Of a stretch of DNA of 64,000 nt, positions 23,801 to 59,803 are shown in pieces (the stretch's first letter is position 1; the number at the start of each line of letters is the position of its first letter). The position numbers were made by a program, and so were the translations under genes. Source of the stretch: Wuchereria bancrofti (Eukaryota; Nematoda; Chromadorea; Rhabditida; Onchocercidae); contig SSBO01000012.1 in NCBI GenBank assembly GCA_005281725.1, forward strand, positions 20,473,060-20,537,059, read 5' to 3'. A model generated the notes under the pieces. That model worked only from the letters and a program-made list of their open reading frames with translations, was not told the origin of the DNA and did not search any database.

Positions 23801-25685
23801 AAATATGGATGGTATAACATTTTTTTGCTATCATTCAATTAAAATTTATAGTTAAATAAATTAAAATTGAATGAATGTATTCCATTAATAGAGCCATCAT
23901 ATTTTATAGATGACATAGTAATGGACGGTAAAGGTATGTTAGGTATGTTGAAGATACCACTATTATGGATTATGATTCATGCAGTGGTTATGTGCGCAAT
24001 ATCATTGTCTTTTCTCGATCCAACTTTAGCAGATCATTTAGCATCGGTATGTCTTTCTTCAGAATTGTTGAAAGACAAATACAAATTCATTACTTTCTTT
24101 TGTAATATCTGAATTCTTCTAATTGTCTGTCATATTTTTTCAATTAGATAACTTATCAGTTTTTTCTATCAAAGATCAGTCTAATATATGTACGTCTTTG
24201 AGTAGCACATATGAACTTGACAAAACTAATACTTTTTCTTTTCAAATTACAGTTCAAACTTTCGCCATCCATTATTGGCCTAATGTTCTTACTATCTGGT
24301 GGAATTTATACGATAACAGCACCTTTCTGGAGCATAATTATCGATAAATTTAACTGCAGCAAGGCAATTATAATGTTTGGCATTATGACAGTAGTGATTA
24401 GTATGATAATCATTGGTCCATCACCTTTTCTGAATGCCGAGAAGTAAGTGTTCACTATAAATAATGCATTTTCTTGAAGTTCGAGACATGGGCAGGTAAA
24501 CATCAATTAGATTACAATTTTATTATATCTCTAATTCTAAGACTAATTTGATGCTTGAAATAACGATTTATTCAAATTATTGCTCTTATATTCATTTAGT
24601 AATTGCTTTATTTACAAATAATAAATGTCTTTCTACGTCATTTTGCCATTATTACAAGCTAACTCGGATATCTTTTATTTGAAAATTCTGAAAATGGGGA
24701 AATTGCTATATATCATAAAATGTTTTGTTTTCTTTCAAAAGATTTGGCTTATTTCATATTAGTACAATTTTATGTCTTGCAGAAACTTAGGATGGATAGA
24801 AGTTGCATTAGGTATACTTGGTCTTGCTACTAGTGCTTTATATATTCCGACTTTTCAAATATCCATTGATACACTATGGTAATTTATCATTTCAATTAAA
24901 GAAAGTTTGAATGAACTTTACAAATTTTAGTTCTATCGTCAAATTAACATATTAATAAATAGGAACAAAGTTTTTCAAATTTATTCTGATTGTCGAATTT
25001 TTTGGATCAGTTATAGCTTGAGTGCTAAATACACGCATATTTCGGCTTTAAGGATATTTTCGATTTCTAATTTAAATTTCAAAAATGTTTTCAGTGTAAA
25101 AACTTCATTACAGCGAATACGGGTACGGTAAATCGTTGCAAACGTATGGCTGTATATCAGGTTTATTTCAGTCTGCCTATTCCTTCGGGTAGGTAAATTG
25201 TACTACATATTTTTGATAAGAAATGATGAAAATGTCTCTTCTTAACTAAACCTCCTTTTCAGATCATTTTTTGGACCAACAGTTGGCGGTCTTTGTGTCC
25301 AGTGGATTGGTTTTCCGTGGACAACAACTATCATAGCTTTATTAAATATTGTCTTTGTTAGTTTTTCTTTAAATTTCTACATAATGAAGATGACTTTTAA
25401 CAGGAATTGGTTATCAAATAACGAAGTGTGTTACTTAGTGATTTGACCTTTTCTAATTTCAAAAATTCAAACTTTACAATTCCAGATGATTGCAATTCTA
25501 TGTTTCTATGCACTATATGGTTGGTTCGGGTTTTGCAGTCAACAGAAGTCCAAGCACAATCACTAATTTCATCTTTCCGTTTGTCACAAATTTTACCATA
25601 TATTTTAACAAAATGTTTATGTTTTTGTCAATTTATAACTCCACAATCTTTCTTTCATTTTGCCTTCTTATAAATGAATTAACTA
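17900..25685. repeat. Segmental duplication, copy A
   Basis: This unit aligns to 36959-43655 in the same orientation. It has four parts. 17900-18504 is similar to 36959-37915 with small changes and two insertions in copy B. 18505-20390 is much longer than its copy-B counterpart and only patchily similar. 20391-21270 is near identical (offset 17918). About 21275-22634 is clearly diverged. 22635-25685 is near identical at a constant offset of 17970, with one substitution noticed (22783 C against 40753 A). Similarity ends abruptly after AACTA at 25685 and 43655. The unit carries a whole transporter gene. Confidence 0.9.
20404..25566 (+). CDS. SLC18B1-like MFS transporter, copy A
   Basis: Thirteen exons join in frame: 20404-20621, 21849-22028, 22355-22538, 22702-22797, 22999-23072, 23162-23309, 23652-23811, 23892-24046, 24253-24443, 24783-24878, 25114-25188, 25263-25356 and 25486-25566. 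They give 583 residues. TGA sits directly before the chosen ATG, which fixes the start. Residues 1-165 form a polar, probably cytosolic leader. TM1 is about 167-189. TM2 leads into the MFS motif-A-like loop PLFGKYMVSIGSKKM (about 220-234). SLEIF-like GVLETFVGLG, SFLDPTLADHL and SFFGPTVGG match SLC18B1, the mammalian vesicular polyamine transporter related to VMAT/VAChT. The family exchanges amines for protons at vesicle membranes; the substrate here is unknown. The leader is far longer than in human SLC18B1 (456 residues overall). A closely similar paralogue lies 18 kb downstream. Splice joins are by eye; exon 6 could end 3 bases earlier. Confidence 0.88.
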
Positions 25686-28600
25686 AGAGAAGGAAATCAC
25701 AGTCATCAGGAAAAGGAACAAAATATTAGACTAGCAATAAATAGTACATTCGTCGTTCAAATTACTAATGAAGTGAAACTAGTGACCATCAATTGGAAAC
25801 ATTAGGAAGTAGTAAACATAAGGTAACAACAATAAGTAGGATCATTCTATATTTTCTTTTTCAATCTTCATAATTTCACAAAAGTCATAAAGATGTTAAG
25901 AAATTTTTTTAAAAATGAAAAAACCAGCAAAGACAGCTGAATGAAATTTTTCAAAGTTCAAAATAATTTTCTGTGGCAATGATAGCAATTGTACAATAAC
26001 TGTTATTGCTGGCGGTGTCTGTATTATTAGTAGTGGCAATTCATGCTAATTTGTTCAATATCCTCTGAAATTTAAATTGATTGTGTACATTGCATTGTTT
26101 TGGATCGGTGTACGTTTTGGACCATAAGTTATTTTAACAGATAAGTTATTTTAATTGAATGACGCGCAAAAAATATATTTGATAATAAAAGCCTGCTCAA
26201 TATGAACCGAATTGAATTTATATTTTGAAATCAAATATTCAATTAAATTAAAGTAATAATGAAGAAATGCGCACAAGTTTTATACTCTTGCTAACAAAAA
26301 CGCCTTTTCCGGTGTTCTTTTATCACGAACGCTGGAGTTTTTGCATATGCTTCAATGTCGTCTGATACTACGATTACAGCGAATTGTCTCTAAAGCCAAT
26401 AAAAAACTGAAAGCTAATAGTAATACTAATACTAAATTGAATCCTTCAAAACTTACTTTCAGTTACAGAAACATTTACTCTTCTATTCAAATTTTATACT
26501 TTGTGTGATGTACCGTTTGTGGAAAGAGTATTCAAATGACACCTTTATACTCAAGAAAATGTATATTTTGGTCAGGAAAACTTTCTTAGTTGTAGTGAAC
26601 ATCATAGCTATTCGGAAGCTATTTTATTTTAGATACAATTGCTATTTATTTGCCAATTTATTACTCTGTATCAGAAAAGCTGAAAAATGCAATTAGTTGC
26701 ATATAGGAATGTTAACAAGGTCAAGTAAGGGGGTAGATAGTTATGAAAGGCCGAAAGGATAAATATGTACAGCACGTACACCTCAATTCACGTATAAACA
26801 AATAGGATTAATCAATCATGAAATGAAGCACGCAAGGATAAAAGTGCAGTGCTGATCGAAAGGCCGTATTCACACTAACAAAACATGGATCACAAGAGGC
26901 CAACCTGGTGACGGAATTATCGCCAGAAGAGGAGCAATCATTGGAGAATTTAAAAGAGTGGATGAAAATAATGAGAATAAATTAGATTCGATAATTCAAT
27001 TTGAGTTGATTGGTACAATGCAGCAGCAGTTCGACTCTTCAACAACACAGTGAGAGAAAGTCTCAAAGTGGATAGTGATGTGGAAGTAGAAGCAACAGTC
27101 AGTAATGGTAGTGAAATTACAATATGGTGAAGATTGAGTTGGCTGTTGACATCTTTTAATATCACTGTATTTACTTCTTTCCCACTATTGTATAGGCACG
27201 AAATTGTAATAAAGTACAAAACCAATAAATTTGATTTAAATTTATTTAATTTATTGCTGTGGAGTTGCTACAACAACAAGGATATAAATAGTATTAATCT
27301 TTCCCCTACAAATTTCTAAAGGAAAAATCTCGTAATATCATGTTCATATCGTGAATGCAAAAAAGTAATCCTTTTCGTTGAGAGCCTAACATCTTTTTTT
27401 ATCGTTTTACATTTGCGCTAGCGGAAAGTGCTATATTAATGTGGGCGCCATAAAGGCGCACACGACTCTCACTCTATAAAATGTATGGTCCTAACCATCA
27501 AGTTCATTTGTATAATAAATTTGTATGAGAGGTTGGGTCTGTTAGTTGGAATGTCCGGCATAGTCTGTACTCTCCTTTTTTTTTGTTGTTGACATCACCA
27601 TTAAATTTGTGTTATTGAAATTCTAACTGCTGGATTCATTGTTGCAGTAACTATTTTATCACAATTAATTACCCAAGTTTGAGAAGTCGAGAAAAAAAAA
27701 ACAAAGAGGTAGACTGTCTCAGTTTTTGTGGTCAGAAAGAAATTGTCGACGCATGGGAAAATCAGTAGAAATTCGACATATTAAGAGTGTAAGGTCAAAA
27801 ACAGTCAAAAAAAGTAGCCAATGCCAATTTAGTCTTGATAGTCCCATGTTTCATTCAAATATTCTTATTCCACTTTTCTGCTCAAGTGTCTAGCCACAGG
27901 AATATCTTTAACAGATTAATCAGATTTCACATGTAGTTGTGCATCACTTACCGCCAATTTCTTGAAGAAAATTTAGATCAAAGTAACATTTGCATCAATT
28001 TACTCGTTAGATAACTTGTCGATGGATCTTTTTGTAAGTAATAAATCAAAATTGCCTTATTAATGCAAAATAAAACTGCGAATGTTGAATCAGAGAAAGA
28101 ATCGATGGTCGCATAAAAGCTTATTTTTTATTGTGTTTTCTTTATTCGCCGTCGAACAGTAAATCACTTTTTCTAAGTTGAACAATTTAAGATTGATAAT
28201 AATAAACGGAAAACTGCTGATACCAGTAGTTAATTGAAATTACAAAACAGTTTTTAAATTTCGTTAATATTATAGATTACTATTTCATCTTATATGTCGA
28301 AGTATTGTAAAGACATCACTTGGCCTTAAAAAACCGGCAATTTACCCTTATTAGTTGTCCAGCCAAGTTGTTAGACGATCTTTTAAATTTCATTCACATA
28401 TAATAGAATCAAAATTTAAGCTACAAAATTTTTGTTTTTGAAATGTTATGAAAATATTAAATTGAATTAATGAAAATCATTGGAGACAAATTTAAATTCT
28501 TTTTATGCTATAATATAACAGCGATATTTCCTTCAAAATTTTCGCATCTCGATATGAAGTGTACAGCGACAACCCCTGGTGATTACGGTATCGAAGCCGT

Positions 28601-31329: not shown

Positions 31330-32140
31330 CAAACAACGCCTCCGGATCAAACTTCGATAACGGAGCAGTAACAAGAGTTTTACCAAGGAAACGAATAATT
31401 GAAGATAAAGTTCAAAGATTTCAACTTTGTATCAATCAATACGCTGCAATCTGCAAACGAGAAGTGGCTCAATTACATCCCGAAATCTACCACCACAACA
31501 AAAAGAAGGGAGAAAGGAGACGTGGATTATTTTGAATATTCCTTGAAGGTAAAGAAGCACTAACTACCTACAAAAACGAAAACTATGAACTAGTGTGAGT
31601 CTCACAAGAATTACTGCAACCAAAGAAGCAGTCAAAACCCATATCCATCTCGCATACCCATTTCACAGTCAATCTTCTCAACTATTGTTACCCACTTTTA
31701 GTGGGAACCTAGACAATGGCAACAATTTTGGAGTAGTTTCATTGCTATAGTCCATTCATAAGCAATCGCGGAAATTCAAAAGTTGGATTATCTGCATTCA
31801 TGTTTAAGTAGAAAAGCTTTGCAAGTAGTAAGATACTTCAGAAAACTACGAAGTCATAAGAAGACGGCTAAGAGAGGAACACTCTAGTATTGAAAAGTCA
31901 AAAAACATACTTCACGTTGGATACTAGATAAGATGTATCATCAAAAGAAAATAGGTTGGTTTCGAAGCTTAGAAATTTCCTATCGGCCTTGGTCAATGCG
32001 AATGACCAGGTTAAAAATAGCCAACTCTAATCAATAACGCGTAGGCCGAAGCAACTTGGGCATTCGCAACAGTGATATATCTTAGACTGCAACAAAGAAT
32101 GGACAGATGACCACGTCACGTATTCTTTGCGCCAAAGATC
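31330..32140 (+). pseudogene. BEL/Pao gag relic (DUF1759-like), broken
   Basis: The plus-strand translation contains retroelement gag pieces such as WEPRQWQQFWSSFIAIVHS and IAEIQKLDYLHSCLSRKALQ, matching the Pao/BEL gag pattern (P.W..FW.SF...VH, Q.LNYL.SCL.G.A...V). Several in-frame stops and frame changes interrupt it, so it is dead. Positions 31572-31982 are nearly the reverse complement of 33829-34243. The upstream gag part (TTKRREKGDVDYF region) differs from the other copy, so the two fragments come from related but distinct elements or a chimera. An N lies at 32141. Confidence 0.7.
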
Positions 32141-33828: not shown

Positions 33829-34480
33829 AGGAAATTTCTAATGTGCTTCGAAACCAACCTATTTTCTTTTGATGATACATCTTATCTAGTATCCAACGTG
33901 AAGTATGTTTTTTGACTTTTCAATACTAGAGTGTTCCTCTCTTAGCCGTCTTCTTATGACTTCGTAGTTTTCTGAAGTATCTTACTACTTGCAAAGCTTT
34001 TCTACTTAAACATGAATGCAGATAATCCAACTTTTGAATTTCCGCGATTGCTTATGAATGGACTATAGCAATGAAACTACTCCAAAATTGTTGCCATTGT
34101 CTAGGTTCCCACTAAAAGTGGGTAACAATAGTTGAGAAGATTGACTGTGAAATGGGTATGCGAGATGGATATGGGTTTTGACTGCTTCTTTGGTTGCAGT
34201 AATTCTTGTGAGACTCACACTAGTTCATAGTTTTCGTTTTTGTCGTTGCTGGAACCTGTTGTATGTATTGGATCCAGTTAGTATTAATTGTCTCAAGTGT
34301 GCTAATATGCAGCTTGAGATGCATTGTTCTTTCTTCAATAATTTTTTTTCGAGCCTCGTGCTGTTCTTCTCTGATCAACATTTGCTCCAAAGGCGTTAGA
34401 TCCATTTCTTGGACTTCTTTGAGAAGAGCTTCCAATTTTTCTTTTGTCGGTCGTGCGCTTAATATTATAGTTGCAGACAT
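33829..34480 (-). mobile_element. BEL/Pao gag fragment, 5' end
   Basis: On the minus strand an ATG at 34480 opens an 86-codon frame (SATIILSARPTKEKLEALLK, then a Glu/Lys-rich helix-like stretch) that ends at 34220. The following part (34243-33829) is the near-exact inverted copy of the gag relic at 31572-31982. The start lies immediately after a primer-binding site and LTR, as expected for a Pao gag. The stop codons show that the element is non-functional, and the fragment ends at the junction with the serpin intron. Confidence 0.7.
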
Positions 34481-34498
34481 GCCCGGCTCGTGGTACCA
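34481..34498 (-). promoter_or_regulatory. Retroelement primer-binding site
   Basis: On the minus strand TGGTACCACGAGCCGGGC lies six bases after the LTR end and begins with TGG, complementary to a tRNA 3' CCA. The gag ATG follows directly. The tRNA species was not identified. Confidence 0.6.
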
Positions 34499-34504
34499 AA
34501 TAGA

Positions 34505-35004
34505 TGTTGTGGAAGCAAAATTTCTCTTGGAAAATTTGATAATTTAATTTATTATTTCGGAAGAGGTTGTTGATTGCAGGGAGATTCGTTGAATGTAGAT
34601 GTATGTGGGGTAACAGAGGAAGAGAATAATTCTTTATTAACAGAAGCAACTGTACAATCTTGATAAATCCAACAAAAACTGATGCATTATATAAGATGTG
34701 GGAGTGGTTTATAATCAGACAAAGAAAAAATCGTTTAGATGATAATGAGTTACTTGAACAATAGGTTACAATGGACAATAGTTACAATGCAAGGGATTAC
34801 ATGGGTATCACAAAGAACTTACATTGGGTGGCAACTATAATTGGTTACAATAGACATTAAATGGTGGATGCTCATAGCATAGGATTGTTATAAGATCAAA
34901 GGTCAGCTAAACGAGTGCGATGCATTGCAAAGGAAATTATAATGGATTGCTATATTAAGCAGTATTAACATTTATTTAGCTTCGCGATATTGAAATTCGC
35001 GACA
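34505..35004 (-). mobile_element. BEL/Pao-type 5' LTR, complete, minus orientation
   Basis: About 500 bases read TGTCGCGAATTTC...CTTCCACAACA on the minus strand, followed by a primer-binding site and gag, which fixes it as a 5' LTR. The five bases after it on the plus strand (35005-35009) are ATATA, as also seen left of the LTR at 28757. Confidence 0.8.
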
Positions 35005-35308: not shown

Positions 35309-36650
35309 TCACGTGAACTTACTGCCGTTGTCCTCTTCCGAATGACATGGTCGCATGAAGTTATTGCTATAATCTTCTTTCAAATTTCAAGATTGCATCA
35401 TCACTTCAGTTTTTAAATTGTTAATTGAAAATGAGTTTATACCTTAATTGCAATTTCCACAAAATTTTGGCCTGATAGGCGCACATGTGAAGAGGCAAAT
35501 GCGAATCATTTATATCAACATTATCCATTAACTAGCACTGTTTATCACCTAATGTTATTTATTAGTTGAATATTAGTCATTATCTAATCATTATTCAAAA
35601 CCTGAATATTACTTAGTTTTCGTAACAGCAACAAAGTTATTTGGTAATGGATAAAAAACAGAACTGCGTGTTGACATGGCGAACGTCAAATGGATAATGT
35701 CGAATCGGAAATGACTTAACAGTGATGTGACTATAGATCAAATTGTGAAATGGTTCGATGTGTCAACTGTTGGACTCTCCTATGAATTTGTAAAATGGTA
35801 AGCCTAATCCTAAGTCGCCTATAAATTTGGATTTGGAATTTGGAAAAGAACATGTTATTTGGAAGAGAATAACAAAAGCAAGTTCACGCAATCCACATCA
35901 TTTGGAAGAGTGTAACAACAGTAAGTTATTGAAAAGCAAAAAATTCAGAGATTATGTAAATCATAACATTATTACCATCTACGAAGTGCCCAAATTGCCA
36001 AAAGGAAGAAAGGCAAACACTACAAAATATTAAATACACAATTCCAACAAAATAAATCGAGCTTAATTTAGGAGGCTTAACGACAGGGCTTAGGCTTAGG
36101 CTTGGGCTTACCATTCCACAAATTCATAGGTGGCTCAGGCTTAGGCTTAAGCTTACCATTCTACAAATTCATAGGAGAGTCCAACAGTTGACACATCGAA
36201 CCATTTCACAATTTGATCTATAGTCATATCACTGTTAAGTCATTTCCGATTCGACATTATCCATTTGACGTTCGCCATGTCAACACGCAGTTCTGTTTTT
36301 TATCCATTACCAAATAACTTTGTTGCTGTTACGAAAACTAAGTAATATTCAGGTTTTGAATAATGATTAGATAATGACTAATATTCAACTAATAAATAAC
36401 ATTAGGTGATAAACAGTGCTAGTTAATGGATAATGTTGATATAAATGATTCGCATTTGTCCCTTCACATGTGCGCCCATCAGGCCAAATTTCGTGAAAAT
36501 TGCAATTAAGATAAATGCATAAACTCATTTTCAATTAACAATTTAAAAACTGAAGTGATGATGTAATCATGAAATTTGGAAAAAGATTATAGCAATAACT
36601 TCACGCAATCATGTCATTCGAAAGAGAACAACGGCAGTAAGTTCATGTGG
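35309..36650. mobile_element. Long inverted-repeat (fold-back) element
   Basis: The left arm is about 35309-35830 and the right arm about 36068-36650. They are near-perfect reverse complements for roughly 500 bases, with a spacer of about 240. Matching landmarks are GTCAACTGTTGGACTCTCC (left) against its complement GGAGAGTCCAACAGTTGAC (right), and GTGTTGACATGGCGAACGTC against GACGTTCGCCATGTCAACAC. The outer ends and spacer carry copies of a 40-46 base unit built on TTTGGAAGAGAATAACA...AGTAAGTT. No transposase is encoded, so it is a non-autonomous fold-back or long-TIR DNA element. The exact ends and target duplication are unresolved. Confidence 0.8.
36086..36154 (+). repeat. Telomere-like TTAGGC units inside the fold-back element
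   Basis: GGCTTAGGCTTAGGCTTGGG at about 36087 and GGCTTAGGCTTAAGC at about 36137 are short runs of the nematode telomere hexamer. They lie in two copies of a unit of about 46 bases that ends CTTACCATTC.ACAAATTCATAGG. The other arm holds only one degenerate unit (near 35798-35825). Confidence 0.6.
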
Positions 36651-36958: not shown

Positions 36959-39900
36959 ATTTTCGTTGGATCCTATACGTTGGGCCTCTTTCTCCGGTTA
37001 TGCGGTATCATATAATATGCAAATTTCAAAGATGTTTGAAATTTTCTTGGATTAAAAATGAATTTTGATGGATCTTTGATGTAAAAGTGATGGATCCATT
37101 TAACTGGCGCATTCTTCACAGTTGTCATGCATAATTTGTTACAACAAGAAATGTCGTAAGTGCGTCATTTACGTGTTTTCAACAGAAGTGCGTCATTTAC
37201 GTGTTTAGATGAAAAAGATACTACCAAAAAACAGAAAACGATATGCAATGCATATAGAAAGGGCGAACTGACGATGCATTCGACATTATACTAAGCAATC
37301 AGTCCTTCTGTTCTATTTCAAACTGTTTGTTCTTGAATTTTTTAGAAAACTATTTCTTCTTCAAATTTCTTTTTTGCAGATACTTTTCTTAATTTCAATT
37401 GTGTTTTAATAAATTATCATTTTAAAAACCATCAATTACCACTGTCTTTCACATGTAGAATTGACTTTAGAAATATCTGATAAGGTGCAGTCAGTGTCTT
37501 GTTACTCTGTGTGACTGATATCGTATGTGTTATCATCAGTAATACTCATTAGATATTTCTTTCCTTCTGTTTCTTTTTTCATCGCTTCTATTTGTCATTT
37601 TAATTTGTATTAACTTTTTACAAACTTTTAAGTAAATATGTTTTTTACTTTTGTCTGCTAAATGGTTCTTGTCTAAAATTAAAAAGTTGCTCTGTAGCTA
37701 AGAGCAAAGGTCAGTTTTTGTATTTCATATACTCTTTATATTAAATATATCGATCATTCATCGTTATCACAAATTCCTCACACGATTATCTAATAATATC
37801 GTGCACAACCACTTATTTATCATTCATTAAAATCAATGTGATTTGAAAATAAAGGTTTATTAATTTTGTTATGCACCATAAATGGCTTTTTAATTGAACC
37901 AGCAAGAATTTCAACCCTTCCTGAAAAGACATCACACTTTTATTTTTTTGCGATCATCCCCTTAGCATTTTTGACGTAACATCGCCTCTTTTTTATTATT
38001 TTATTTTGTGGGCATTGTAAATATATAGTCTGTAACATATGGGTAATTTCCTCCTTACTTTATTTCTTACTGTAAGCTCTTTTTTCCAATATATAAAAAT
38101 GAAACTTTAAATACGATAAACCTGTAAATCATAATGCAAACCGCGTCATTTGCTGTTCTATTTTCATCAGATACTGTTTATTTACAGACTTATTTCACAT
38201 ATAATCATCTTACAGTCCCTTCTCTTCTGCCGTGTCATTTAGTATATTTAGCATTTTGTCGCAGCAATAAACTGAAATACATTTCTAACGTCCAAATATT
38301 TTCTGGTTTATACACAAATGAATGAATCCTTCATTGGCTATGGATCCTAGACAACTGTCAAATGATATCAATGAAAAATTCTGCAGCATCGATGAAGAGC
38401 GACAAGTTGTAGCAACAACGACGGATAGTTTCAGTAAAAGTGTAGTGCCGAAAGTTCTATCGAGAAGTTACGAAAATCTGCAATGGATTATTGAGAAAAC
38501 GCAATTTGCACCTCACAGTCTTCGAGTTAGAAATGATCGGTATTTATTTCTTTGCATCGCTGTTTTTGAAAAAAATTAAATAATTTCATTTGATGTGATA
38601 AGATTATTGTTAAATAGATTAGCACATTTTATTACTAATTTCATTTCATACCTATTCATAAATAGGTAACTAATGGGAATAATCGTAGAAGTTTGTATAA
38701 TTTTCCATTCTGATCTTAATCAGTACTATCAATTTTATCTGTTTGATATTCAATATCAAAGATATGTTAGTACTACTTTGCATAATTACTTCATTGATTC
38801 TCACAATCTTTTTCTCTCTCTCTCTGTGTTGCACTTCTTTTGTTCAGCCTTACTAATACACCACAGTAAAACATTTGAATCTTAAATGAGCAATCATTTA
38901 ATTCAAAATAATATCAGAAATATAATGCATAAACAAACAAATAGATTATTAAAAACTTGTCGATGAAATCTATTCTAATTTTTGTTTTATCGTTATTGAT
39001 TTGATCTCTACATTGATTATAATTTGAAATACGAAATACGACTGTATTTTGAAGTGTGTCAAATATAAATTAACAAAAGGACGATAACATTCAGAATACT
39101 GCTGATGTCGTCGTGGCATCAGAATGAAACTTTACAAAATGAATTATTGAGAATTCAAGAGATTCAAAAGATGCAATTTCAAAAGAACTAAAATTCATAT
39201 TTACATTCATTAATGATAAGAAGGAAGTTTTTCAATTAGAAACGAAAATTATTTTTCATTTGTTTTCTCAATGCTTAGACATTTATGATTTGCAAAAAAA
39301 TTTTCACTCCAGAAAGGTTTTCATAAAATATAATTTTTGCTTATGCACTGTTTTTCAAAACAGCAACATAGGGAAAGAGTAAAGGAATAGTTATGAGCAA
39401 TAGGGAAAAGTAGCAGGTTATGGGCAATAACAAGTTTATAACAAGTATACCGGTCGTTTTTTCTTTTGCACTCTTCGTTTCTGGACTATTTCATACCTTT
39501 ATAAATACCTGGCGTCCTTCCTCATCGATGTACTCATAATCCTCATAGAGGTATGCACACCTGTTGTCAACTATGAAATGTATATTGTTATTTCTTCAAT
39601 TATTGTTACAAATCATCAAGAAAAACCTTTCAGTTGATTATTAGAATTGTGATTATTAAAATATTTCATGCTGATAAAATAAATTCAAAAACATTTGAAA
39701 ACTGATAAATTATATGATAGTGGCAGTACTTCAAGGAAATACTGGATATAAATTCAAATCATAATGTTTCAGGCCAACTACAGCACCACCGTTTATGCCA
39801 GCTGAACAAATAGCAAGTGAATTCGGTAAATTAACTATCCCACATGTTACTCGTGCTTCATTCAAATCTCACGGAAATTATGGAAGTATCCGTGTGATAT

Positions 39901-42900
39901 TACAAGATGAAAAACTACAAGAAAAATCAGTTGATAATGAAAATGAGAGGTTTAAATCCATTCGGATTTTTCATTTTGGAACTTATAGCAGGGAAAGACT
40001 AGTAAACTAACTCAAATTTCCAAGGCAGACGTTATTCAAAATATATAATACTATATTAATCATCGAATTAAATGTAAACTTAAAACCAAACTGAAAATAG
40101 AACATGAAAGAGAAATATATTTTCTATCGTTTAAAGTGATTTTTAAAGGCAAAATATCAAAAACATGAATTTTGGCAAATTTATTTTCAAATATATTTGA
40201 CTTCTAACTAAAAAAAAAGACACTGAGAAGACATAAATTCAATTTAAGATCTACGTTTCAAATCATCATTTTCAGTTTGGATGAAGGAATTACTAAATGC
40301 AAAGACTATAGCAATAGCAATGACAATAATTATCTACCGAATTGCCAAATTGCTACATCTGCCAAATTACTGTCACTTACCGCCAAAGAGTGGGTGACAA
40401 TTTGTACGCTGTCAATTGCAAATCTCGCTGGTACCAGTGCATACAGCTGCATTGCACCTTTTTATTCATATGAAGTCGACTATATGTTTCTTAAAGATGA
40501 AAACATTAAAATAATTAGATATCATTATAGGTTTATGTAAACTATAAAGTTTTTATTTTTGTAAAGATAAGTCTTTATTGTAAATAAAATCTGTTATTTT
40601 CATGGTAGATAATTCAACTAGGTCACTTTAAAAAAAGTTGAAAAATCACAAATCGATAATCCGAATTTCAGGCGAAAATTAAAGGTTTAAGAAGTTTCGA
40701 GATAGGTGTAGTATTTGGTGTTTTCGAGCTAATAATGTTTTTTATTGCACCTATATTCGGCAAATATGTTCGTTTAATTTAAATTTTTAATTTAGAGCCA
40801 TTTTGCAAGAAGATGTGCTGACCGTAGCTTAGCTAGTAATTCAGTTTTACAGATAGAAAAAATCTTTCTGAAGACTTTTTCCAAATGGAAGTATTAATGG
40901 CAACTTAGCTAATAAACCCTTTAGCAAATTCTTTTTTCACAAGCGGGTGAAAAATATGAAAATTTTAGATGGTTTCAATCGGTTCAAAAAAGATGTTTGT
41001 TTCTGGGATCGGAGTTACTGGTATCACTGTTGTGCTCTTCGGGTACGTTCATCTATTTTAAGTATTACTCTTTTAAAAAAAGTGCAAAGTAATGATTTAA
41101 ATCATTAGAGCGTTTATTATGTCATTTCCAGATTCTTGAATTACATTGAATCGTCGTCTTTATTTTTCTGGTCCTCGATCGGTCTTCGAATATTGGAAGC
41201 TATTGGTGACGCAGCTTTTGTCACTTCATCATTTGTAATCGGTGTTAAATGCTTCCCAGGACGAATTGCAATTGTTGTAGTACGAATTTCATTGTTTGGT
41301 TTATTTTGAAATTAGCATCTCTGACACTTAAATTTTGAAACACCAAAGAAAAAACGTGACTTTTGATAATTTGTTATACATTTTCAACAATTTGGCAGAA
41401 TTGATCGCTTTCTAAATAGTAGCCACTCCAATTATAAATGGATAGTAGAATAAAATAGTCGTAAATAAATAAAAATCAAATATATGATTTATCGATATCT
41501 TATATGATATGACTGATATGTCAAGCACTCATTCATTCGACCAGCGGAGTTTTCCGATTTAAAATGATTGAATTGATCCAACTTTCGTAAATATCCATAG
41601 AAATTTCGCTTAATTTTTAAGGGTGTGTTGGAAACATTCGTTGGTCTTGGCAGTACCGCAGGTCCTTTACTTGGTGGTATACTGTATGAAATTGGTGGTT
41701 TCAAGTTGCCATTCATTGTTCTGGGAATTATTTTACTCTTTCTTGGATTACTAGCATATTTTTTGGTTGAAAATATGGATGGTATAACATTTTTTTGCTA
41801 TCATTCAATTAAAATTTATAGTTAAATAAATTAAAATTGAATGAATGTATTCCATTAATAGAGCCATCATATTTTATAGATGACATAGTAATGGACGGTA
41901 AAGGTATGTTAGGTATGTTGAAGATACCACTATTATGGATTATGATTCATGCAGTGGTTATGTGCGCAATATCATTGTCTTTTCTCGATCCAACTTTAGC
42001 AGATCATTTAGCATCGGTATGTCTTTCTTCAGAATTGTTGAAAGACAAATACAAATTCATTACTTTCTTTTGTAATATCTGAATTCTTCTAATTGTCTGT
42101 CATATTTTTTCAATTAGATAACTTATCAGTTTTTTCTATCAAAGATCAGTCTAATATATGTACGTCTTTGAGTAGCACATATGAACTTGACAAAACTAAT
42201 ACTTTTTCTTTTCAAATTACAGTTCAAACTTTCGCCATCCATTATTGGCCTAATGTTCTTACTATCTGGTGGAATTTATACGATAACAGCACCTTTCTGG
42301 AGCATAATTATCGATAAATTTAACTGCAGCAAGGCAATTATAATGTTTGGCATTATGACAGTAGTGATTAGTATGATAATCATTGGTCCATCACCTTTTC
42401 TGAATGCCGAGAAGTAAGTGTTCACTATAAATAATGCATTTTCTTGAAGTTCGAGACATGGGCAGGTAAACATCAATTAGATTACAATTTTATTATATCT
42501 CTAATTCTAAGACTAATTTGATGCTTGAAATAACGATTTATTCAAATTATTGCTCTTATATTCATTTAGTAATTGCTTTATTTACAAATAATAAATGTCT
42601 TTCTACGTCATTTTGCCATTATTACAAGCTAACTCGGATATCTTTTATTTGAAAATTCTGAAAATGGGGAAATTGCTATATATCATAAAATGTTTTGTTT
42701 TCTTTCAAAAGATTTGGCTTATTTCATATTAGTACAATTTTATGTCTTGCAGAAACTTAGGATGGATAGAAGTTGCATTAGGTATACTTGGTCTTGCTAC
42801 TAGTGCTTTATATATTCCGACTTTTCAAATATCCATTGATACACTATGGTAATTTATCATTTCAATTAAAGAAAGTTTGAATGAACTTTACAAATTTTAG

Positions 42901-43655
42901 TTCTATCGTCAAATTAACATATTAATAAATAGGAACAAAGTTTTTCAAATTTATTCTGATTGTCGAATTTTTTGGATCAGTTATAGCTTGAGTGCTAAAT
43001 ACACGCATATTTCGGCTTTAAGGATATTTTCGATTTCTAATTTAAATTTCAAAAATGTTTTCAGTGTAAAAACTTCATTACAGCGAATACGGGTACGGTA
43101 AATCGTTGCAAACGTATGGCTGTATATCAGGTTTATTTCAGTCTGCCTATTCCTTCGGGTAGGTAAATTGTACTACATATTTTTGATAAGAAATGATGAA
43201 AATGTCTCTTCTTAACTAAACCTCCTTTTCAGATCATTTTTTGGACCAACAGTTGGCGGTCTTTGTGTCCAGTGGATTGGTTTTCCGTGGACAACAACTA
43301 TCATAGCTTTATTAAATATTGTCTTTGTTAGTTTTTCTTTAAATTTCTACATAATGAAGATGACTTTTAACAGGAATTGGTTATCAAATAACGAAGTGTG
43401 TTACTTAGTGATTTGACCTTTTCTAATTTCAAAAATTCAAACTTTACAATTCCAGATGATTGCAATTCTATGTTTCTATGCACTATATGGTTGGTTCGGG
43501 TTTTGCAGTCAACAGAAGTCCAAGCACAATCACTAATTTCATCTTTCCGTTTGTCACAAATTTTACCATATATTTTAACAAAATGTTTATGTTTTTGTCA
43601 ATTTATAACTCCACAATCTTTCTTTCATTTTGCCTTCTTATAAATGAATTAACTA
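36959..43655. repeat. Segmental duplication, copy B
   Basis: This unit pairs with 17900-25685. Compared with copy A it has extra segments at about 37150-37376 (including two copies of GTGCGTCATTTACGTG) and 37519-37657, and it lacks much of the sequence before the gene. High identity resumes at 38309, a dozen bases before the transporter ATG, and ends at 43655. The region upstream of 38309 is only loosely similar to its counterpart, so the two genes have different promoters. Confidence 0.9.
38322..43536 (+). CDS. SLC18B1-like MFS transporter, copy B
   Basis: The thirteen exons are 38322-38539, 39773-39949, 40276-40474, 40672-40767, 40969-41042, 41132-41279, 41622-41781, 41862-42016, 42223-42413, 42753-42848, 43084-43158, 43233-43326 and 43456-43536. 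They give 587 residues. Exon 1 encodes the same protein as copy A. In exon 2, 38 of 59 aligned residues match. Exon 3 is longer by five codons and diverged in its polar part, although TM1 (WVTICTLSIANLAGTSAYSC) is close. Exons 4-13 are identical except for one Leu to Ile change in the TM2/motif-A region. The frame is open throughout, so both copies could make a protein. The leader before TM1 is about 170 residues and differs most between copies, so any difference in sorting or regulation would lie there. Role as for copy A: a proton-coupled vesicular amine-type carrier by family; substrate unknown. Confidence 0.88.
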
Positions 43656-46509
43656 ATAATATTGACAAAACATAGTGCTACATCCTAAAGTCACATAAAT
43701 TTAGCCATGCGAACAAATGCGAAGTATATTTTGTATATACAAGTAAACCTGAAAAATATCAATGTTTTGGTAACCGAGGGGGAATGGAAAAGTAGTCTAT
43801 TTCAATTTTTGATTAGAATTATTTAATTGCCCAAGCATCTATGTTTATTAACAAACATAAAAACGTATAGAAACAAATGTAAATGTTAACGATAAACTTT
43901 GAAGTACGAATAAAAAACGAAGTAGAAGATACCCAATTCAAAAAATCAAAAAAAGAATAACGTAACCGCCAAGAAACATGCATGCAATATTGAAGACAAA
44001 TGCGTAACTACGGTTTTATTAATCTTAAAATCAAATAAGAAAAAATTTCTCACAGTAATAATGGAAGCATTTGAGGATGTATGGAAAACGACGGATTAAT
44101 TATGAACTGATAAAGTGATATAATCTGGTATTCAAATTTTCCTTTTTTTTAAATTCAAATAAAGTGAAGGAATATTTGCTCAAACAAAATTTTATCTTGA
44201 ATCTACTAGATATGGTCATTGCTAGTACTAGTTGCAATTTTACAAATGTAACACGCAATTTTAGATTTTATAATTTAATTTACCGGTTTAAGCTGATGCA
44301 AAGAGACAATTGTAATATCAGTATAATCCGGCAATGAAATCAAATTCATCCATTTCCGTGTCGTGTTTCAAACGAAATAGAAACAATTGCATATAGAAAC
44401 TAATCTGGGAAATTTGTTATCAGCTTCTTTCTGATTTTGTTAAGCAGTTGCCATAGACATTGACTTCTTTTAGAAATTGCCTTCTTTTGGAAATGAAGAT
44501 CATATATCTTTTAGATAATTGAAGTGATCTTTGATAAGTGAGGAGGAAATTAAATCGGTTGGCGAACGATTATGCCAGCTGCTGTTGAATTATAATTCAA
44601 AAATGAGTCTTCAACTAAATATTTGAAACTGATGTGTTAATACAAATGCTTGAATGAAGGATTTCCATAATTTAGAATTTTCGCGTTTTTTTCTTTTTCT
44701 TTGTATTTAAAAAGAAAAAAGATTCCATAAAATTTACAAATAGTATTTTTATTAATTTTCTACACCTAATTATTTTTTTCTGCGTAAATTGGAATAAGAA
44801 AAAACACAAATATATTCGATAGATAAAAAATAACCGATCAACTTATTAGTATTCGAATTTGGTACTAATCGAAAAATTTTTTTGTTAATAGAAGTAATAC
44901 ACTTTTTTTCTTCGTTGTACGATTTTGAAAACTTTTGAATTCATAGAAGTGGACAGTACTAAAATTGAAATTAACATGCAAGTATTTGATCAATACAAAT
45001 AAAAGAAGTATTTTGAACTTCTGAAAACTTCCAAAGGTGACAGAAAGTTATTGGTCTCTTTTTGCTCACTAATGCGGACTAGCAATGAGCGCTCCTGGAT
45101 TAATCTCCGGAAATCTAAGAATGATGCTAATAAAATCAGATAAATCATTTCAACTTAATCTTCCTAATAAATCATAGCTAACATTTTTCTTTCTTTTTTT
45201 TTTCCAGTCATCATATGTACCATTTTCATGAAATTGAAGATAATGTGTAGATATTTGTAAGTATAAGTAGAAGCTAACATTTAAAATTAACTAGAACAAA
45301 CGTTCACCTCATTTAATTCACAGTTTTTTTCCGTCAGGAAAATTGTTATTAATAAGACTCATTAAATTTTAACTGTTTTGAATAAAAGTGAAATATGATT
45401 ACATTCTGCCCTTCATTTAGAACAGTTTAAGCTTCAGCGGATCTTATCAGTACCCATTATCACTACTACATTTTCATTGTCTTAACATCCTCTATAGTAT
45501 ATCTTTCACTCTTGTCGATCATATGCTTCTTAAACAGAGCAGATAAACAGGCGTAACAATTAAGAATAATTAAATCTCATCATCAATAGTATCGATTACA
45601 ACTTTTTAGTGAATTAATTCTTCATTTGATATTTTGTGTTGTGTTGTACTTTTTTATGTGCGCTGTAAAACTTTTTATAATAGTTTGCCACAGATAATTA
45701 AGATAATTAGAAAACTATCCGAGAAATTATTATGTTAAATAGCCGAACAAAGTGGATATAGGCTGAACGTATTTTAAAATTAAATGAAAGTTTAAAATTG
45801 AATAAAATCTTCAAGCTCATTCTAAACATTAAAGCAATAGTTTTTCGGTATAACATTTTATAAAAAGTAATTTTTCTTAACTACTTCTGTAAAGCTGAGC
45901 GATAGCTATTACTTCATCACTGCTAGTCGAATTCAGTGATTATTGCAGCCTCTTTTATTAATTCCAATGGTATTGTTACTCTCGAATTTGATATGTTAAT
46001 TAAATTAATTTATCAGCAATGTCATAATTATGAGTATGATGAAAGGAAGAAGTAATAAGTATTCGAAATGTCATCTGCTCATAAGTGACATTTCTTTTTT
46101 GTTTGTTTCTTTGCTTATCAATCTTCTTCAAATTTTCACACCAATTCATTGATAAAACTAGCAAGGAAAAGTTTACTTGTTGTATGATTACTACAAAGTA
46201 ATGTATAAAAAGAAAAAAATCGTTTTATTCTCAAATGCTTGAAAACTTAAAAATTTTGAGCAAAATAATTCTGCAATGTTCACTTTCAGCTTCTTTTTCA
46301 TTGTTGAATTTTAACAGAATGCCTAAGATTGTTGTCCTCCTCATTGCGCTTAGTGAGATGGAACAGTTGCAATACAAGATTTTCGAGCAGATGCTTACAA
46401 GGAGGTGTAAGTAGTTAGCAGTTCAGAAGAAGAAGAAGAAGAGGAAGAGGAAGAGGAAAAAGTTTGTAGAAATATTTGTAGCATTTGATTGACCCGATCG
46501 TTCATTCTT

Positions 46510-53740: not shown

Positions 53741-56700
53741 ATGAAATCTCACATATACTCGCTATTTGCACTATTTATTGTTATTGCTGATGGTGAGTAA
53801 CTTTTGGATGAATTTCATTCCATAAGTTGTGCTAATTAGAAATTAGTCAACATTATTTAATTTCAGTATTTGCAAAGGATGTCAGGAAATTATGTACCAA
53901 TACATTGGGTAGCAGAAGTTGTGGCCAATGTATTAAACAACATCCAGATTGTGCATGGTGTCTTGATCCGGTTAGCTTATTGCTCATCAATCATTTGTAA
54001 ATTAAAAATAAAACAATTTTGAAGGAATTAAAAAAAAACAATTTGAAAAAAACTTTGAAGGAATTAATATATTTAGGATTTTGTCAATTAAAATATATTC
54101 AATACATATTGGAATCTTCAACTGCTGCAAAATTATGTATTGTTAGCTCAAAATGATAAGTATAAATATGTTAAAAATTATACTATTGCTTTTTATTTGC
54201 TTATTTAATATGATTTGACTTTCTGACAAATTTATTTTTGACAAACTAAATCCCAAAGTTGAGTTTATTTTATATTTCAATTAATTTTTCTCACTGATGC
54301 CTTAGTTCTGTGTGAAAATTAATTATTTGAAAAAAAAAGTGAAATTAAGGAAATTTCGAATTATATTAAACTATTCTAAATATGAATGAGATTAGAGCTC
54401 AGAAATGCAATAAGTTTGACCATCCAGGTTTAAGCCAATAAAACTTACTGTCAATTAGCATGACAGAATGGAATTTAAATTAACAAAAAACACTTTCAAA
54501 AAAAAAAAAAACCTTAAGAGAATATTAAGATTAATGTAATCGTTGTGCATAAATATTTTTCTGTGGATTTTTTTTTTTTTTTTTCGAATTGATAATAAAT
54601 TATGAGGAAGAAAATTTTTGAAATATTACAGCATTTGGTAGGTCCATCACGATGCGATTTAAAATCTGAATTTCAAGGCAAATGTGCTCCATCGCTTATC
54701 TATTCACCAACTACAGAAGTTCGAATTGTACCTCAAAATGTAATATTTATTTTTGAATAATAAATCGAATCTTTTTCGTTTAATCTAAATTAGTTTTAGA
54801 ACAATTTAACAAGTTCAGAAGTTTCCAGGTATGTAACCTTTATTGATCATAGCAATTTAGTTGTCCTTTTAAGTAAGGACAACTAAATTGCATTTTATAG
54901 CTGAAAATTCCGTTACTGCAAAATTTAAAGACACTATAAAATATTATTTAATTTTTCCAGCTTATTTTTCTTGAAATTTCCAAAACTAATTAATTATTGT
55001 TTTAGAATTTGCCATTAGGAAGTAAACAGGCAGATGGTGCAACGATTGTACAACTCGAACCACAGCAAGTTGTTTTGAGAATGAAACCTGGTAACCATAA
55101 ATTTTATAATTACTTCATCCTATCTCATATCTCATTCAAATTTTGTCACTTCTATGAAATAGCAAAAAAAAAAACATTAGGTCTTCTCACGTACTACTGG
55201 TAAAAGTGATGTATTTGAAATTACTATAAAATGCTAGAATTTGCATTTTCAAATTTATTTTCACTATCGGCTAAAAGAAATTACTGCTATAATTATTTCT
55301 TTCAAATTTTCATTATTATTTAAATGCATATAACAAAATGAACTTGATTATTTTAAAATGTCAGTAACTTGACATACTTTTTTTTCTTTCATTCTTTGTT
55401 AGTTAGTAAATATCTTTTGTTTGTTTGGTGAGATCTGAAAAAAAAAAGAAGCAAATCATCCGACCATTTAGTCTTTTTCTTTGTTTTCCTCTTTCTTTGT
55501 CATGCTCAAATTTTATAATTCAATCCAAAAACAACAATATATTTAGTTAGCAATAAACTGTCTATTATTATGTTCAAATCTGATGACTCAATTCAAATGT
55601 TAGTGATAGGTAGTTGAACAGTACAAACTTCACGTCGGCAAATATTGCTAATTTAAAAAGCAGAAAACATTGCTTAATAAACTAAGTTGAAAAAAAAAAA
55701 AAAAGAAAACAAAGTGTGTGTGTTGTTTTTGTAATTAAATGCACTTTTTAACATATAAACAGCAAAATAGTGCTGAAGAAGAAGCATATAAACAAAATAG
55801 CAGCCAATTATCATTGCTGTGTAAAAGTAAAGTTAAACAAAATTTCCGAGAAGAATGAAAAAATTTTAGTAGCTTTGAAAGCAATGTTAAATTCAAATTC
55901 CATGTTACAACTATAATCACCATTTTATCATTGCTTGGTCAGGTTATCTTATCAAATAAACATATGTTTTTGTAATTATATGCACTTTTTGAAAAATTCT
56001 TATCACAACAAAATGAATCATCTTAGGAAATGATTTAAATTTTTGCTGCTTTACAATTATATATGAGAAGAATTAAGGAAAATTAAAAAGAATTTTATCG
56101 ATGAAAATTTGAAAATTTTTATTTCTTAATGTTAAATGCGACAAGTAATTAAGCAATTAGAAATAATTGTTAAATTAGAAAACAACAAACGAATGTCTGC
56201 CTTATCATTTTCTTATAGTTTATGCTAATCAAATAATAAAATACTACAAGTTACTCTGCTAATTATAATCACTTAATCATCTCTTCCCCTTTCATCTTTC
56301 CAATTAATTTTTTACCTAGATTATTTGCATGTATCGCAAAAGTGTTGAAAATCTTCATAAATTTCACTTTTAATCCATGGTATTACATTTCTTCACTTTC
56401 GTCTAGTTTTTTCCTTTTGCCATCCAATCACAGCCAAATACTATAAAATATGATTTCATGACACTTTTCACGATTCATTGTTGTGAATTTTCGTAAATGT
56501 TTGAAATAAAATATTTCATTTTTTTTTAAACTATCGCCTTATTTTCACTCGCCTATTTCTCTATTAATGCCTTATTAAATTCATCAAACTCACAATTGTC
56601 TTAATTTTTTGATCCAAAACTTAGCAAAATTGCACTGTTTGATTCCTTTCTCTATCAATGTCTTATTTTATGCTTTCAATTTAAGTTAGTACTAAAATAA

Positions 56701-59700
56701 AAATTGTACACATATTAAATGATATTTGCAGATGAAATATTTCATTTGAGAAGTGAAATTTGAAAAGTTAAATATTAGTTTAAATCAAAAAATAGTTGGA
56801 AGATATTTATGTATACCTTATTTGCATGAATTTACTTTATTTAAGTGATTTTTTTATTTCCAGGTGATATAATGGAAGTACCATTCAAATACCTGCACAG
56901 GCCACAGCAACCAAGTCAGCGTGATTTTGTCATACAAACCAGCGAGTTTCGATCATTGGGTGTTGGTATCGATTTTTCCATTCTTTGCGGAGGGTATATT
57001 TTATTAAATTTGAAATTTATCAAATATTTAATTGTTGAACATCTTCATTTAATAATAATGCTTAAAATATTAGTTTACATTTACACCTCATTTGTGCATT
57101 TATTCGAAATGAAACTACTTTGCTTTTTTACAATAAAAATAAATGAGATTTTTGTTCAAATTAAATTCCCAACAAATTCTATTGTTTTTGCATAACTTAT
57201 ATTTTAATAATCTGAATTAAATGAAAATTGATAAAACACATCAATATATTACTTTTTCTCTTTGAAAGTTACATTTACACTTTCTCATTTGTGCATTTAT
57301 TCGAAATGAAACTACTTTGCCTTTTTTTTGCAAACTATTAATTGATTCAAATTTCGAACTTAAAAAAAAAAGAAGTTAAAAATATATTTTACAGAAAGCG
57401 AGTGCAAGGACGGCAATGTCCAAATGTTGCAATAGGTGATCAAATCGAATTTTTCGCGAAAGTATCCTTAAACGAGTGCAAATTAGGAGGCGATATTGCG
57501 GTTTCTATTGGCGCATATGGTTATCAAACCGTTTCTGCTATGTATATCACACCATCATGTGGTTGTGAATGTGAAAAAGTGCAAAATCAGGTTTATACAT
57601 CATATCTTTTCCAGATGTATAAAGCAGTTTTAATGTTTTATAATTAAAAGAGATATAAAATGCTCAGTAAAATTCTCTGGTGTTATTTAAACGAATTATT
57701 TCTAGGAAAAGCTATCACCATTATGTTATGGTGCAGGCGATTTAATTTGTGGTGTATGTGAATGTCAACCAGGTAAAGGTGGAAATCACTGTGAATGTGA
57801 TTTAAAGCAGCATGGTGCTTTATCAGCTCAGGAATTGGAAAATAGATGTAGAAAGTAAGAATTGATAATTATCATGATTAACTTTTAATTTAAATAATTA
57901 AAATTCAAAAGAATTAAAAGTGATATTATAATATTATGCATTTCATACTTTAAAAGATTCGACTCATATTTTTATTCATAGAAATTCGTTTAATTTAATT
58001 CATAATTCATTCCATAGCACAATAAACCTCACCCAAATAGCTCAATAAGATATACATTCTAACAAATTAAATTGGAAAAGATTAAAGCAAACGTTTGTTA
58101 TCATTTTAGAACTCCGAAAGATTTAGTTTGTAGCGGTAATGGTCAGTGCAAATGCGGTAGCTGTCTTTGCAACGTCGAACACGTAAGTGTATTTAGCGTT
58201 CTGCTGACTCAATTTTACCTCAGTACTAACTTTAAAATTATGTTTAAAAACTAATGTTTAAAAAAACGTTGAGATGCATCGAAGTTCCGTTATATACGCT
58301 GAATACGTAGGCATGGACAACTGATTGACTTTTTTTTTTTCGAATGTTTATTTATTTGTTAAAATGACAAAATTTTCCTTTGGGTGAAGTGTTTTGGTTG
58401 GATTCGAGATTTAAAGAGATTTAAATTCGAAATTTGACTTTACCAACAATCATTATTGATCTACACGTCAATACGATTGTTATTGCTATCTTTTGAAATT
58501 AAAATCTGGTCAATTAAACTTAATAGTTTTGATCGCACTATGAGGAAACCCTTGTAGAATTCAATTGTTATAGGTTCGTGGAAATTATTGCGAATGTGAA
58601 AATATGTCATGTCCAAGTTCTAATAACAGAATGTGTGCAGGCCAAGGTGAGTGCAAATGTGGCAAATGTCATTGTGAAGAAGGTTATACAGGTGATGATT
58701 GCTCGTGCACTCTCGATACTTCTTCATGTTTAGAAGGCGGAGTAAGTTTCAAGAAGATTTGTGAAAATTTTTTATTTTATATTAAAAATTTTGCATATGC
58801 GTTTTCTTTCAAAAATATTTATATGAAAAAAAAAGAAGTATATTTTTGCGCAAATGTTTTATTTTCTATGGTATGAGCGTATGCGAACCAAATTTTCTAC
58901 TTATTTCTTTATTGTATCTGTGTTTAACTTTTTTTCTGTAGATTTTTTTAAATTTTAAGATATAAACTTTATTATCAGCATTTCACTCTTTAACTTTTCA
59001 ATGCAGTTTATTGGAATTTTTGTTTTCTTTTTTTTTCAGAAAATTTGCAGTGGACAAGGTAGATGTGAATGTGGAAAATGCGTTTGTTATGAGGGTTTCA
59101 CAGGGTTAACTTGTGGAGTAGTGGCTGAAAATGAGGCCTTAGATGATGAAATGCCTGAATCACCTGATTTTGGTGAACATGGTGAGATGGATGGATCCTC
59201 AAAAGATAGTGTAAACAAAGTTGGATATGATCAATTTCAAGAAGAGAATTTAGATGAGATTACTGAAAATAAAGTGAAAGAGGGCGAAGAATATGCTGAA
59301 GTAACAGAAGGATATGAAATGAATGGTCAAGAAGGTATGAAAAGTGAACATAATTCAAAAATTTAATTGTTATCTATTTCTATTCCATTTGTATTGATTA
59401 ATATATGAAGTTTTGTTTTTTTTTAATCAGAAATAAAAAAATTATACGTGAAAATAATCAGCAATTTCAGAAAAAAAAGAAAAAAGAAAGAAAAACAAAT
59501 GAAATTATTATTATTATAAGATTGAGGTTAAGATTTTAAAGCATAATAAAAGGATGGTTTTTTAAATGTTACAAAAATTTCATGAACCATTTTTTTTTTA
59601 TAGCTGGTGAAATATTGCCATCAGTGGATGATGATGATATTGGTAGTAAATCAGCTGAATTAACTGAGACAAGAGCTGAAGCTGGTGATAGCGGTAATGA

Positions 59701-59803
59701 TGGTGATATGATGACACATGAAGGACAAACTGCTGGTTGCTTACGGATAAAAATTCATTCATTCTTTTTATTAATATCATTAATGATACTTTTTTGGCCT
59801 TAA
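53741..59803 (+). CDS. Integrin beta-like protein lacking the beta-I domain, with acidic stalk and hydrophobic C-terminus
   Basis: Eleven exons join in frame: 53741-53792, 53867-53970, 54632-54739, 55006-55090, 56864-56993, 57395-57590, 57706-57854, 58110-58182, 58574-58741, 59040-59334 and 59604-59803. They give 519 residues. Signal peptide about 1-20; PSI domain about 25-75 (SCGQCIKQHPDCAWC). The first half of the hybrid domain follows (TIVQLEPQQVVLRMKPG, ending FKYLHRP), then directly its second half (GVGIDFSILCGGKRV, then CPNVAIGDQIEFFAKV). Four cysteine-rich I-EGF modules run from about 205 to 388 (CSGNGQCKCGSCLC, CAGQGECKCGKCHCEEGYTG, CSGQGRCECGKCVC). The roughly 240-residue beta-I domain that should interrupt the hybrid domain is absent. 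After I-EGF4 come about 110 residues rich in Glu and Asp, then HSFFLLISLMILFWP and stop: no beta tail, no NPxY tail. The end suits a GPI signal or a tail-less membrane segment. Ligand binding by the usual MIDAS site is impossible; the role is unknown. Confidence 0.88.
54852..54891. repeat. Perfect 17-bp-stem hairpin in intron 3 of the integrin-like gene
   Basis: GCAATTTAGTTGTCCTT (54852-54868), a 6-base loop TTAAGT, then the exact complement (54875-54891). It lies in the intron between exons 3 and 4. Confidence 0.75.

Follow-up and report, generated by a model that had tools for sequence, protein, structure and literature searches.

A divergent integrin beta-derived gene without the ligand-binding beta-I domain in Wuchereria bancrofti

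The locus and its gene model

The window analysed in this study is a stretch of 64,000 nucleotides of the W. bancrofti genome, situated on a contig of 24.1 Mb (C12), and the genome searched comprised 86.5 Mb in 108 contigs. The gene of interest occupies positions 53741-59803 of the window. Predicted splicing joins its 11 exons, all on the forward strand, into 1560 coding bases (519 residues, no inner stop). All 10 introns have GT...AG borders, and the frame stays open up to the stop codon at 59803. The modules of the encoded protein are, in order, a signal peptide, a PSI domain, both halves of the hybrid domain, I-EGF1 to I-EGF4, an acidic linker and a hydrophobic C-terminus.

Exon 1 (53741-53792) contains the start codon and the hydrophobic signal peptide (hydrophobic residues 4-20). 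The first half of the PSI domain is encoded by exon 2 (53867-53970). Exon 3 (54632-54739) holds the end of this domain and the start of the N-terminal half of the hybrid domain, and is covered by a phmmer match to an integrin beta-3 chain (protein residues 26-120 against chain positions 4-98). The hybrid N-half continues in exon 4 (55006-55090; QLEPQQVVLRMKP), which is followed by an intron corresponding to intron 4 of the PAT-3 gene of the same genome in phase (phase 1) and in position. Exon 5 (56864-56993), flanked by introns of phase 1 and phase 2, encodes the last strand of the N-half, a short turn that replaces the beta-I domain, and the first strands of the hybrid C-half, so that the two halves are joined within it. 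A preliminary description of this DNA had placed the join in a single exon of 130 bases, which proved exact to the base, with the frame open through the join.

The remainder of the hybrid C-half, recognised by phmmer, lies in exon 6 (57395-57590). I-EGF1 and the start of I-EGF2 were found by Pfam in exon 7 (57706-57854), and I-EGF2 continues in exon 8 (58110-58182), whose 73 bases equal the length of PAT-3 exon 14. Exon 9 (58574-58741) covers the end of I-EGF2, I-EGF3 and the start of I-EGF4 (Pfam), exon 10 (59040-59334) covers I-EGF4 and part of the acidic linker, and exon 11 (59604-59803) encodes further linker and the C-terminal hydrophobic stretch, followed by one residue and the stop codon, an end of the GPI-signal type.

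A possible trans-splice acceptor, TTTACAG, was seen by eye to end 25 bases 5' of the ATG, and the genome contains at least nine matches to SL1 RNA, seven of them over the cut-off (best 50 of 30033 candidates scored). A primer pattern for the HhaI repeat of Brugia had no exact match in this genome. Where intron 10 is left unspliced, positions 59335-59366 add about 10 residues and lead to a stop at 59366; this form, without the hydrophobic C-terminus, is possibly secreted.

Elsewhere in the window, a block of 3063 bases occurs twice (22624-25686 and 40594-43656, 17,970 bases apart) with 99.9% identity, and more diverged pairs lie upstream of it (20373-21485 with 38291-39401, 94.8%; 18247-18506 with 37654-37913, 97.3%). 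This arrangement reflects a recent segmental duplication, gene conversion or an assembly artefact. An inverted repeat of about 410 bases (31570-31981 and 33829-34243, 99.3% identical, arms about 1.85 kb apart) is possibly a young mobile element or a palindrome. Between 28752 and 36649, repeats of about 420-520 bases lie clustered in both orientations and share about 91-98% identity (e.g. 35310-35814 and 36140-36649). An open frame on the reverse strand at 34220-34543 had DGCR6 as its sole listed Pfam match, at 15.8 bits, below the cut-off of 29.6.

Domains kept and domains lost

The N-terminal piece of the protein matched the PSI_integrin family (PF17205) with 36.3 bits, the Pfam cut-off being 27, and the exon-level genome search gave 30.2 bits for the window gene; the family did not appear in the Pfam list for the full-length protein. 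EGF_integrin and I-EGF_1 passed their Pfam cut-offs, and the alignment spans all four I-EGF modules. No Pfam family was assigned to the hybrid region, and both of its halves were matched by phmmer to the human beta-1, beta-2 and beta-3 chains. Against the human beta-1 chain (9b9j_B), residues 12-134 of the window protein align with positions 12-143 for the N-half, and residues 147-382 with positions 390-632 for the C-half.

Six-frame profile searches of the genome were carried out exon by exon, and the numbers of genomic places given below are therefore lower bounds. The I-EGF_1 profile was found in at least two places, one in the PAT-3 gene and one in the window gene. The window protein itself matched at least 12 places, which correspond to its own exons 2-11 (10 places) and to PAT-3 (two places). 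A further PSI_integrin match, at C12:2090921, lies in a gene that by eye resembles attractin or MEGF8 (C12:2086000-2095999; kelch, PSI, EGF and CUB-like parts).

Two other families with EGF modules were considered for the window protein and rejected. Attractin/MEGF8-like proteins have kelch repeats in addition to PSI and laminin-type EGF modules, and no kelch family was present among the five Pfam families listed for the window protein. On the EGF part only, the teneurin EGF profile PF25024 reached 34.9 bits (cut-off 65), and PF23106 reached 24.4 bits (cut-off 24.3).

The beta-I domain is absent. Its profile (Integrin_beta, PF00362) gave no match on the contig of the window and was found in at least five places in the genome, all of them in the PAT-3 gene, within C1:1084635-1086347 (all seven candidates scored). 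When the beta-I domain of PAT-3 was compared with the whole window by tblastn, only two chance matches were obtained (E 3.5 and 6.4), both of them outside the window gene. The profile search and the tblastn comparison together rule out a missed beta-I exon.

The loss is not confined to this domain. The beta-tail domain (PF07965) was found in at least two places in the genome, both of which are PAT-3 exons, each below the cut-off as a single exon; none was found in the window gene. The C-terminal piece of the window protein belongs to no Pfam family, and neither the integrin transmembrane segment nor a cytoplasmic NPxY tail is present, the chain ending one residue past the hydrophobic stretch. 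Beta-tail, transmembrane and NPxY parts have thus been lost in addition to beta-I, which the preliminary description had not noted.

Comparison with PAT-3 and the origin of the gene

A complete PAT-3-type gene is located on the minus strand of contig C1 at about 1081-1088 kb (hand-spliced model). Its product scores 357 bits for the beta-I domain (residues 155-400), 69 bits for the beta-tail and 71 bits for the cytoplasmic domain in Pfam, and contains the motif DLSYS in beta-I and the motifs NPIY and NPVY in the tail. The integrin alpha profile (PF08441) was found in at least one place, also on C1. The window gene shares with PAT-3 the PSI domain, both hybrid halves, I-EGF1-4, the cysteine frame and the counterparts of PAT-3 introns 2-4 and 11-14, whereas the beta-I domain with DLSYS, the beta-tail domain, the transmembrane segment and the NPIY/NPVY tail are found in PAT-3 only.

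In a mafft alignment from which the beta-I domain of PAT-3 was left out, 41 of 42 cysteine columns were common to both proteins, one cysteine pair of the PSI domain being left unaligned by the program. Identity in the same alignment was 34% (125 of 368 aligned residues). The modules that the preliminary description had listed, i.e. PSI, both hybrid halves and four I-EGF modules in this order, are borne out by Pfam for the PSI and EGF parts, by phmmer for the hybrid domain and by the alignment with PAT-3.

Over the hybrid C-half and the EGF part, the window protein scored 149 bits with PAT-3 and 130 bits with human beta-1, while PAT-3 scored 192 bits with human beta-1. Since the same human chain is matched with 130 bits by one protein and with 192 bits by the other, the window gene has changed faster than PAT-3. 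Faster divergence over about the same part would also be expected of a decaying pseudogene, or could point to a wrong gene model, but 519 open codons, 10 GT...AG pairs, 41 of 42 cysteine columns kept and a contig free of beta-I matches make this explanation highly improbable.

The introns of the two genes correspond closely. Window introns 2, 3, 4, 5, 6, 7 and 8 have the phases 0, 0, 1, 2, 0, 2 and 0, the same as PAT-3 introns 2, 3, 4, 11, 12, 13 and 14. Measured from the preceding cysteine, they lie 0, 2, 0, 0, 3, 0 and 0 residues from their PAT-3 partners; measured from the following cysteine, the offsets of introns 2, 5, 6, 7 and 8 are 3, 2, 2, 0 and 5 residues. In mafft columns, introns 3, 5, 6 and 8 are displaced by 2, 2, 6 and 5. 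Seven of the eight core introns thus have the PAT-3 phase and lie at most 3 residues away (from the preceding cysteine). Among 200000 random placements of eight introns, with the PAT-3 positions entered by hand as approximate distances, the maximum was five of eight, reached once. Intron 1 also has the PAT-3 phase, at a distance of 8 columns, and was left uncounted because the signal-peptide region aligns poorly. In the comparison of the two genes, no partner was found for window intron 9 or for PAT-3 intron 15.

PAT-3 introns 5-10, which lie inside beta-I, have no counterpart in the window gene. Because introns 2-8 match while these six have no partner, the window gene descends from a complete integrin beta gene. 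Its exon 5 starts where PAT-3 exon 5 starts and stops where PAT-3 exon 11 ends, with equal phases, and about 240 residues of PAT-3 are replaced in it by a turn of about ten (near RPQQPSQRD). The loss is in frame and extends from the middle of exon 5 to the middle of exon 11, near the borders of beta-I. When the loss occurred, the beta-I part of the ancestor may have contained fewer introns, with the same outcome.

This structure also bears on technical explanations. An assembly gap is ruled out because the join lies in frame inside one exon between introns common to PAT-3, and a processed copy is ruled out by the retained introns. The claims that beta-I is missing, that its loss is fixed in the gene and due neither to exon skipping nor to a gap, and that the product is not a canonical integrin subunit had all been made before; each has held, and the intron phases, which the preliminary description had not used, support them further.

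The gene is best explained as a diverged copy of a complete integrin beta gene. Beta-I was lost from it in frame, and an acidic linker and a GPI-type signal would have taken the place of the beta-tail, transmembrane and cytoplasmic parts, either simultaneously or afterwards. A search of bacterial and archaeal genomes for close relatives gave 21 pattern matches, none of which was confirmed.

Whether the hybrid domain can close in the absence of beta-I, a question raised in the preliminary description, has an experimental parallel in the solved structures of human beta-2 chains that lack beta-I. With these structures and with the cysteines kept in the window protein, such a closed domain is plausible. 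Like the window protein, the human beta-2 chains 2p26, 5e6v, 5e6w and 5e6x have PSI, hybrid and I-EGF parts in one chain without beta-I; these chains are presumably engineered and not natural genes. For the PSI/hybrid/I-EGF1 segment of beta-2, a crystal structure has reportedly been determined (Shi 2005). By phmmer, 5e6w, 5e6v and 2p26 matched the window protein in one stretch, which for 5e6w runs from position 8 to 313 of 317 against residues 33-343 of the window protein. The absence of beta-I from 5e6w is evident from the start of the hybrid C-half match, at position 117 compared with 356 in the complete chain 3k6s. A query of 120 residues around the join matched the beta-I-less beta-2 chains in one stretch, weakly (22.9-24.6 bits), and with a query of 105 residues ending earlier these chains were not listed, even at E 10.

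Predicted cell surface location and possible function

The hydrophobic C-terminal stretch covers residues 502-518 of 519 and has a mean hydropathy of 1.99, compared with 3.22 for the corresponding stretch of PAT-3, and it contains K and H near its start. It is followed by one residue in the window protein and by 56 in PAT-3. The last 139 residues, starting with GVVAENEA, are acidic (36 D+E, 8 K+R). By hydropathy, the protein thus has the N-terminal signal peptide of GPI-anchored proteins, with hydrophobic residues 4-20, as well as a C-terminal hydrophobic signal of the GPI type and no cytoplasmic tail. The end is assigned to the GPI type because a single residue follows the hydrophobic stretch and neither a beta-tail nor an NPxY tail is present.

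The window gene is probably the ortholog of C. elegans C05D9.3, which is presumably itself a beta-I-less integrin relative, and of Bm1972a of Brugia malayi. The two proteins have been described as EGF-like and as GPI-anchored or located at the cell membrane (PMC6742230; PMC3096668), as predicted for the window protein, a likeness of descriptions and not of sequences.

Bm1972a was reported as an 'EGF-like domain containing protein' orthologous to C05D9.3 (PMC6742230). It was represented by four unique peptides in one sample, PI-PLC-treated membranes, the other four samples being blank, and was recognised by two of three GPI predictors (PMC6742230). It is described there as GPI-anchored, and its C. 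elegans ortholog is listed as detected in a study of GPI proteins (Murata 2012, cited in PMC6742230). The word 'integrin' does not occur in the main text of this report on Brugia (PMC6742230). In C. elegans, C05D9.3-GFP expressed from a muscle promoter was among 30 cell-membrane proteins, and the gene was marked with an RNAi phenotype from an earlier study (PMC3096668). Since the promoter was foreign, natural expression is not demonstrated by the GFP study. Neither an origin from integrins nor a missing beta-I domain comes up in the passages on these two proteins (PMC6742230; PMC3096668).

From the sequence and the reports on the likely orthologs, the window protein appears to be held on the outer leaflet by a lipid anchor. 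The preliminary description had offered a decoy, a structural spacer, or a surface or secreted regulator as possible roles; the GPI-type end and the lost tail parts narrow these ideas towards a lipid-anchored surface protein. The preliminary interpretation stood in so far as it saw the scaffold of an integrin beta chain whose beta-I is missing from the gene itself, and hence no canonical subunit. What it had missed were the GPI-type C-terminus, the lost beta-tail, transmembrane and NPxY parts, and the published likely orthologs.

In integrins, beta-I carries the MIDAS and the contact to the alpha propeller, and the cytoplasmic tail is the site of talin and kindlin binding. The window protein cannot be an integrin receptor, because it has neither beta-I nor a cytoplasmic tail; metal-dependent ligand binding through a MIDAS, the usual pairing with an alpha propeller, and recruitment of talin or kindlin would all be impossible for it. 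It would instead be a disulfide-rich rod on the outer leaflet, made up of PSI, a closed hybrid domain and four I-EGF modules.

With descent, missing parts and gene structure established, we read the gene, with moderate confidence in the reading as a whole, as a divergent beta-I-less duplicate of an integrin beta gene that encodes a GPI-anchored rod with an accessory role beside PAT-3 integrins or their matrix. The rod might act through its hybrid or I-EGF surfaces next to true PAT-3 integrins or their matrix, e.g. in body-wall muscle. Taken by itself, this accessory role on the outer leaflet is tentative, possible but short of probable. During integrin activation the hybrid domain swings out and the molecule opens at I-EGF1/I-EGF2 (PMC9688440), and the window protein has kept some of the parts that take part in this movement.

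It seems rather unlikely that the protein is a surface rod unconnected with integrins, which serves as a spacer, is bound by an unrelated receptor as its ligand, or contributes to the structure of the glycocalyx or matrix. The integrin-specific working parts are gone, the identity of 34% to PAT-3 is low although the cysteine frame is kept, and conserved cysteines would fit a plain spacer as well. For mere spacing, however, a PSI domain and a closed hybrid domain would presumably be unneeded, and the RNAi mark of C05D9.3 in the muscle study hints at an adhesion-related role, if this gene is the ortholog (PMC3096668).

Capture of alpha chains or of beta-chain regulators by a decoy or dominant-negative partner, which would lower PAT-3 function, is improbable. 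The leg modules, which in integrins run alongside the legs of the alpha chain, are kept, but the main contact between alpha and beta chains needs beta-I, which is absent here. Truncated beta-1 paralogs of zebrafish would, if they pair, form non-signalling receptors (PMC1538996), a precedent that favours such a role. These paralogs (beta1tr-1 to -3) resemble the window gene in being integrin beta duplicates without transmembrane and cytoplasmic parts and in ending just after EGF-4, but they keep the beta-I (A) domain with changed metal sites (PMC1538996). The term GPI is absent from the main text of the zebrafish paper, which also refers to spliced integrin beta forms in sponge and man that are cut within the hybrid domain (PMC1538996).

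ITGBL1 of vertebrates consists of integrin-type EGF modules only, without beta-I, PSI, hybrid domain or GPI signal. Both proteins are without beta-I, but the window protein has PSI and hybrid parts (PSI_integrin score, phmmer matches) and so is not EGF-only, a distinction that had been drawn earlier and is upheld. In a literature search mainly outside subscription papers and with some narrow terms, no paper was found to describe an integrin beta relative that lacks beta-I and has a GPI-type end. A curated annotation of C05D9.3 may exist. Probably the gene family is already present in nematode proteome lists, and its descent by loss of beta-I between introns common to PAT-3 is the new contribution.

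Nematodes are generally credited with a single beta integrin, and the beta-I and beta-tail profiles identified one gene only, PAT-3, in the genome searched. A bolder proposal, which we regard as speculative and rather doubtful, is that nematodes conserve a second integrin-beta-derived gene whose product changed from a receptor into a GPI-anchored partner on the outer leaflet, where it would tune the single PAT-3 integrin from outside, e.g. at muscle attachment membranes, as a naturally occurring equivalent of the human chains engineered without beta-I. If true, a second beta-derived surface protein that has shed beta-I, beta-tail and cytoplasmic parts would mean that the scaffold of integrins had been cleanly separated in nature from their signalling, and C05D9.3, if orthologous, would offer a genetic handle on PSI, hybrid and I-EGF surfaces acting alone.
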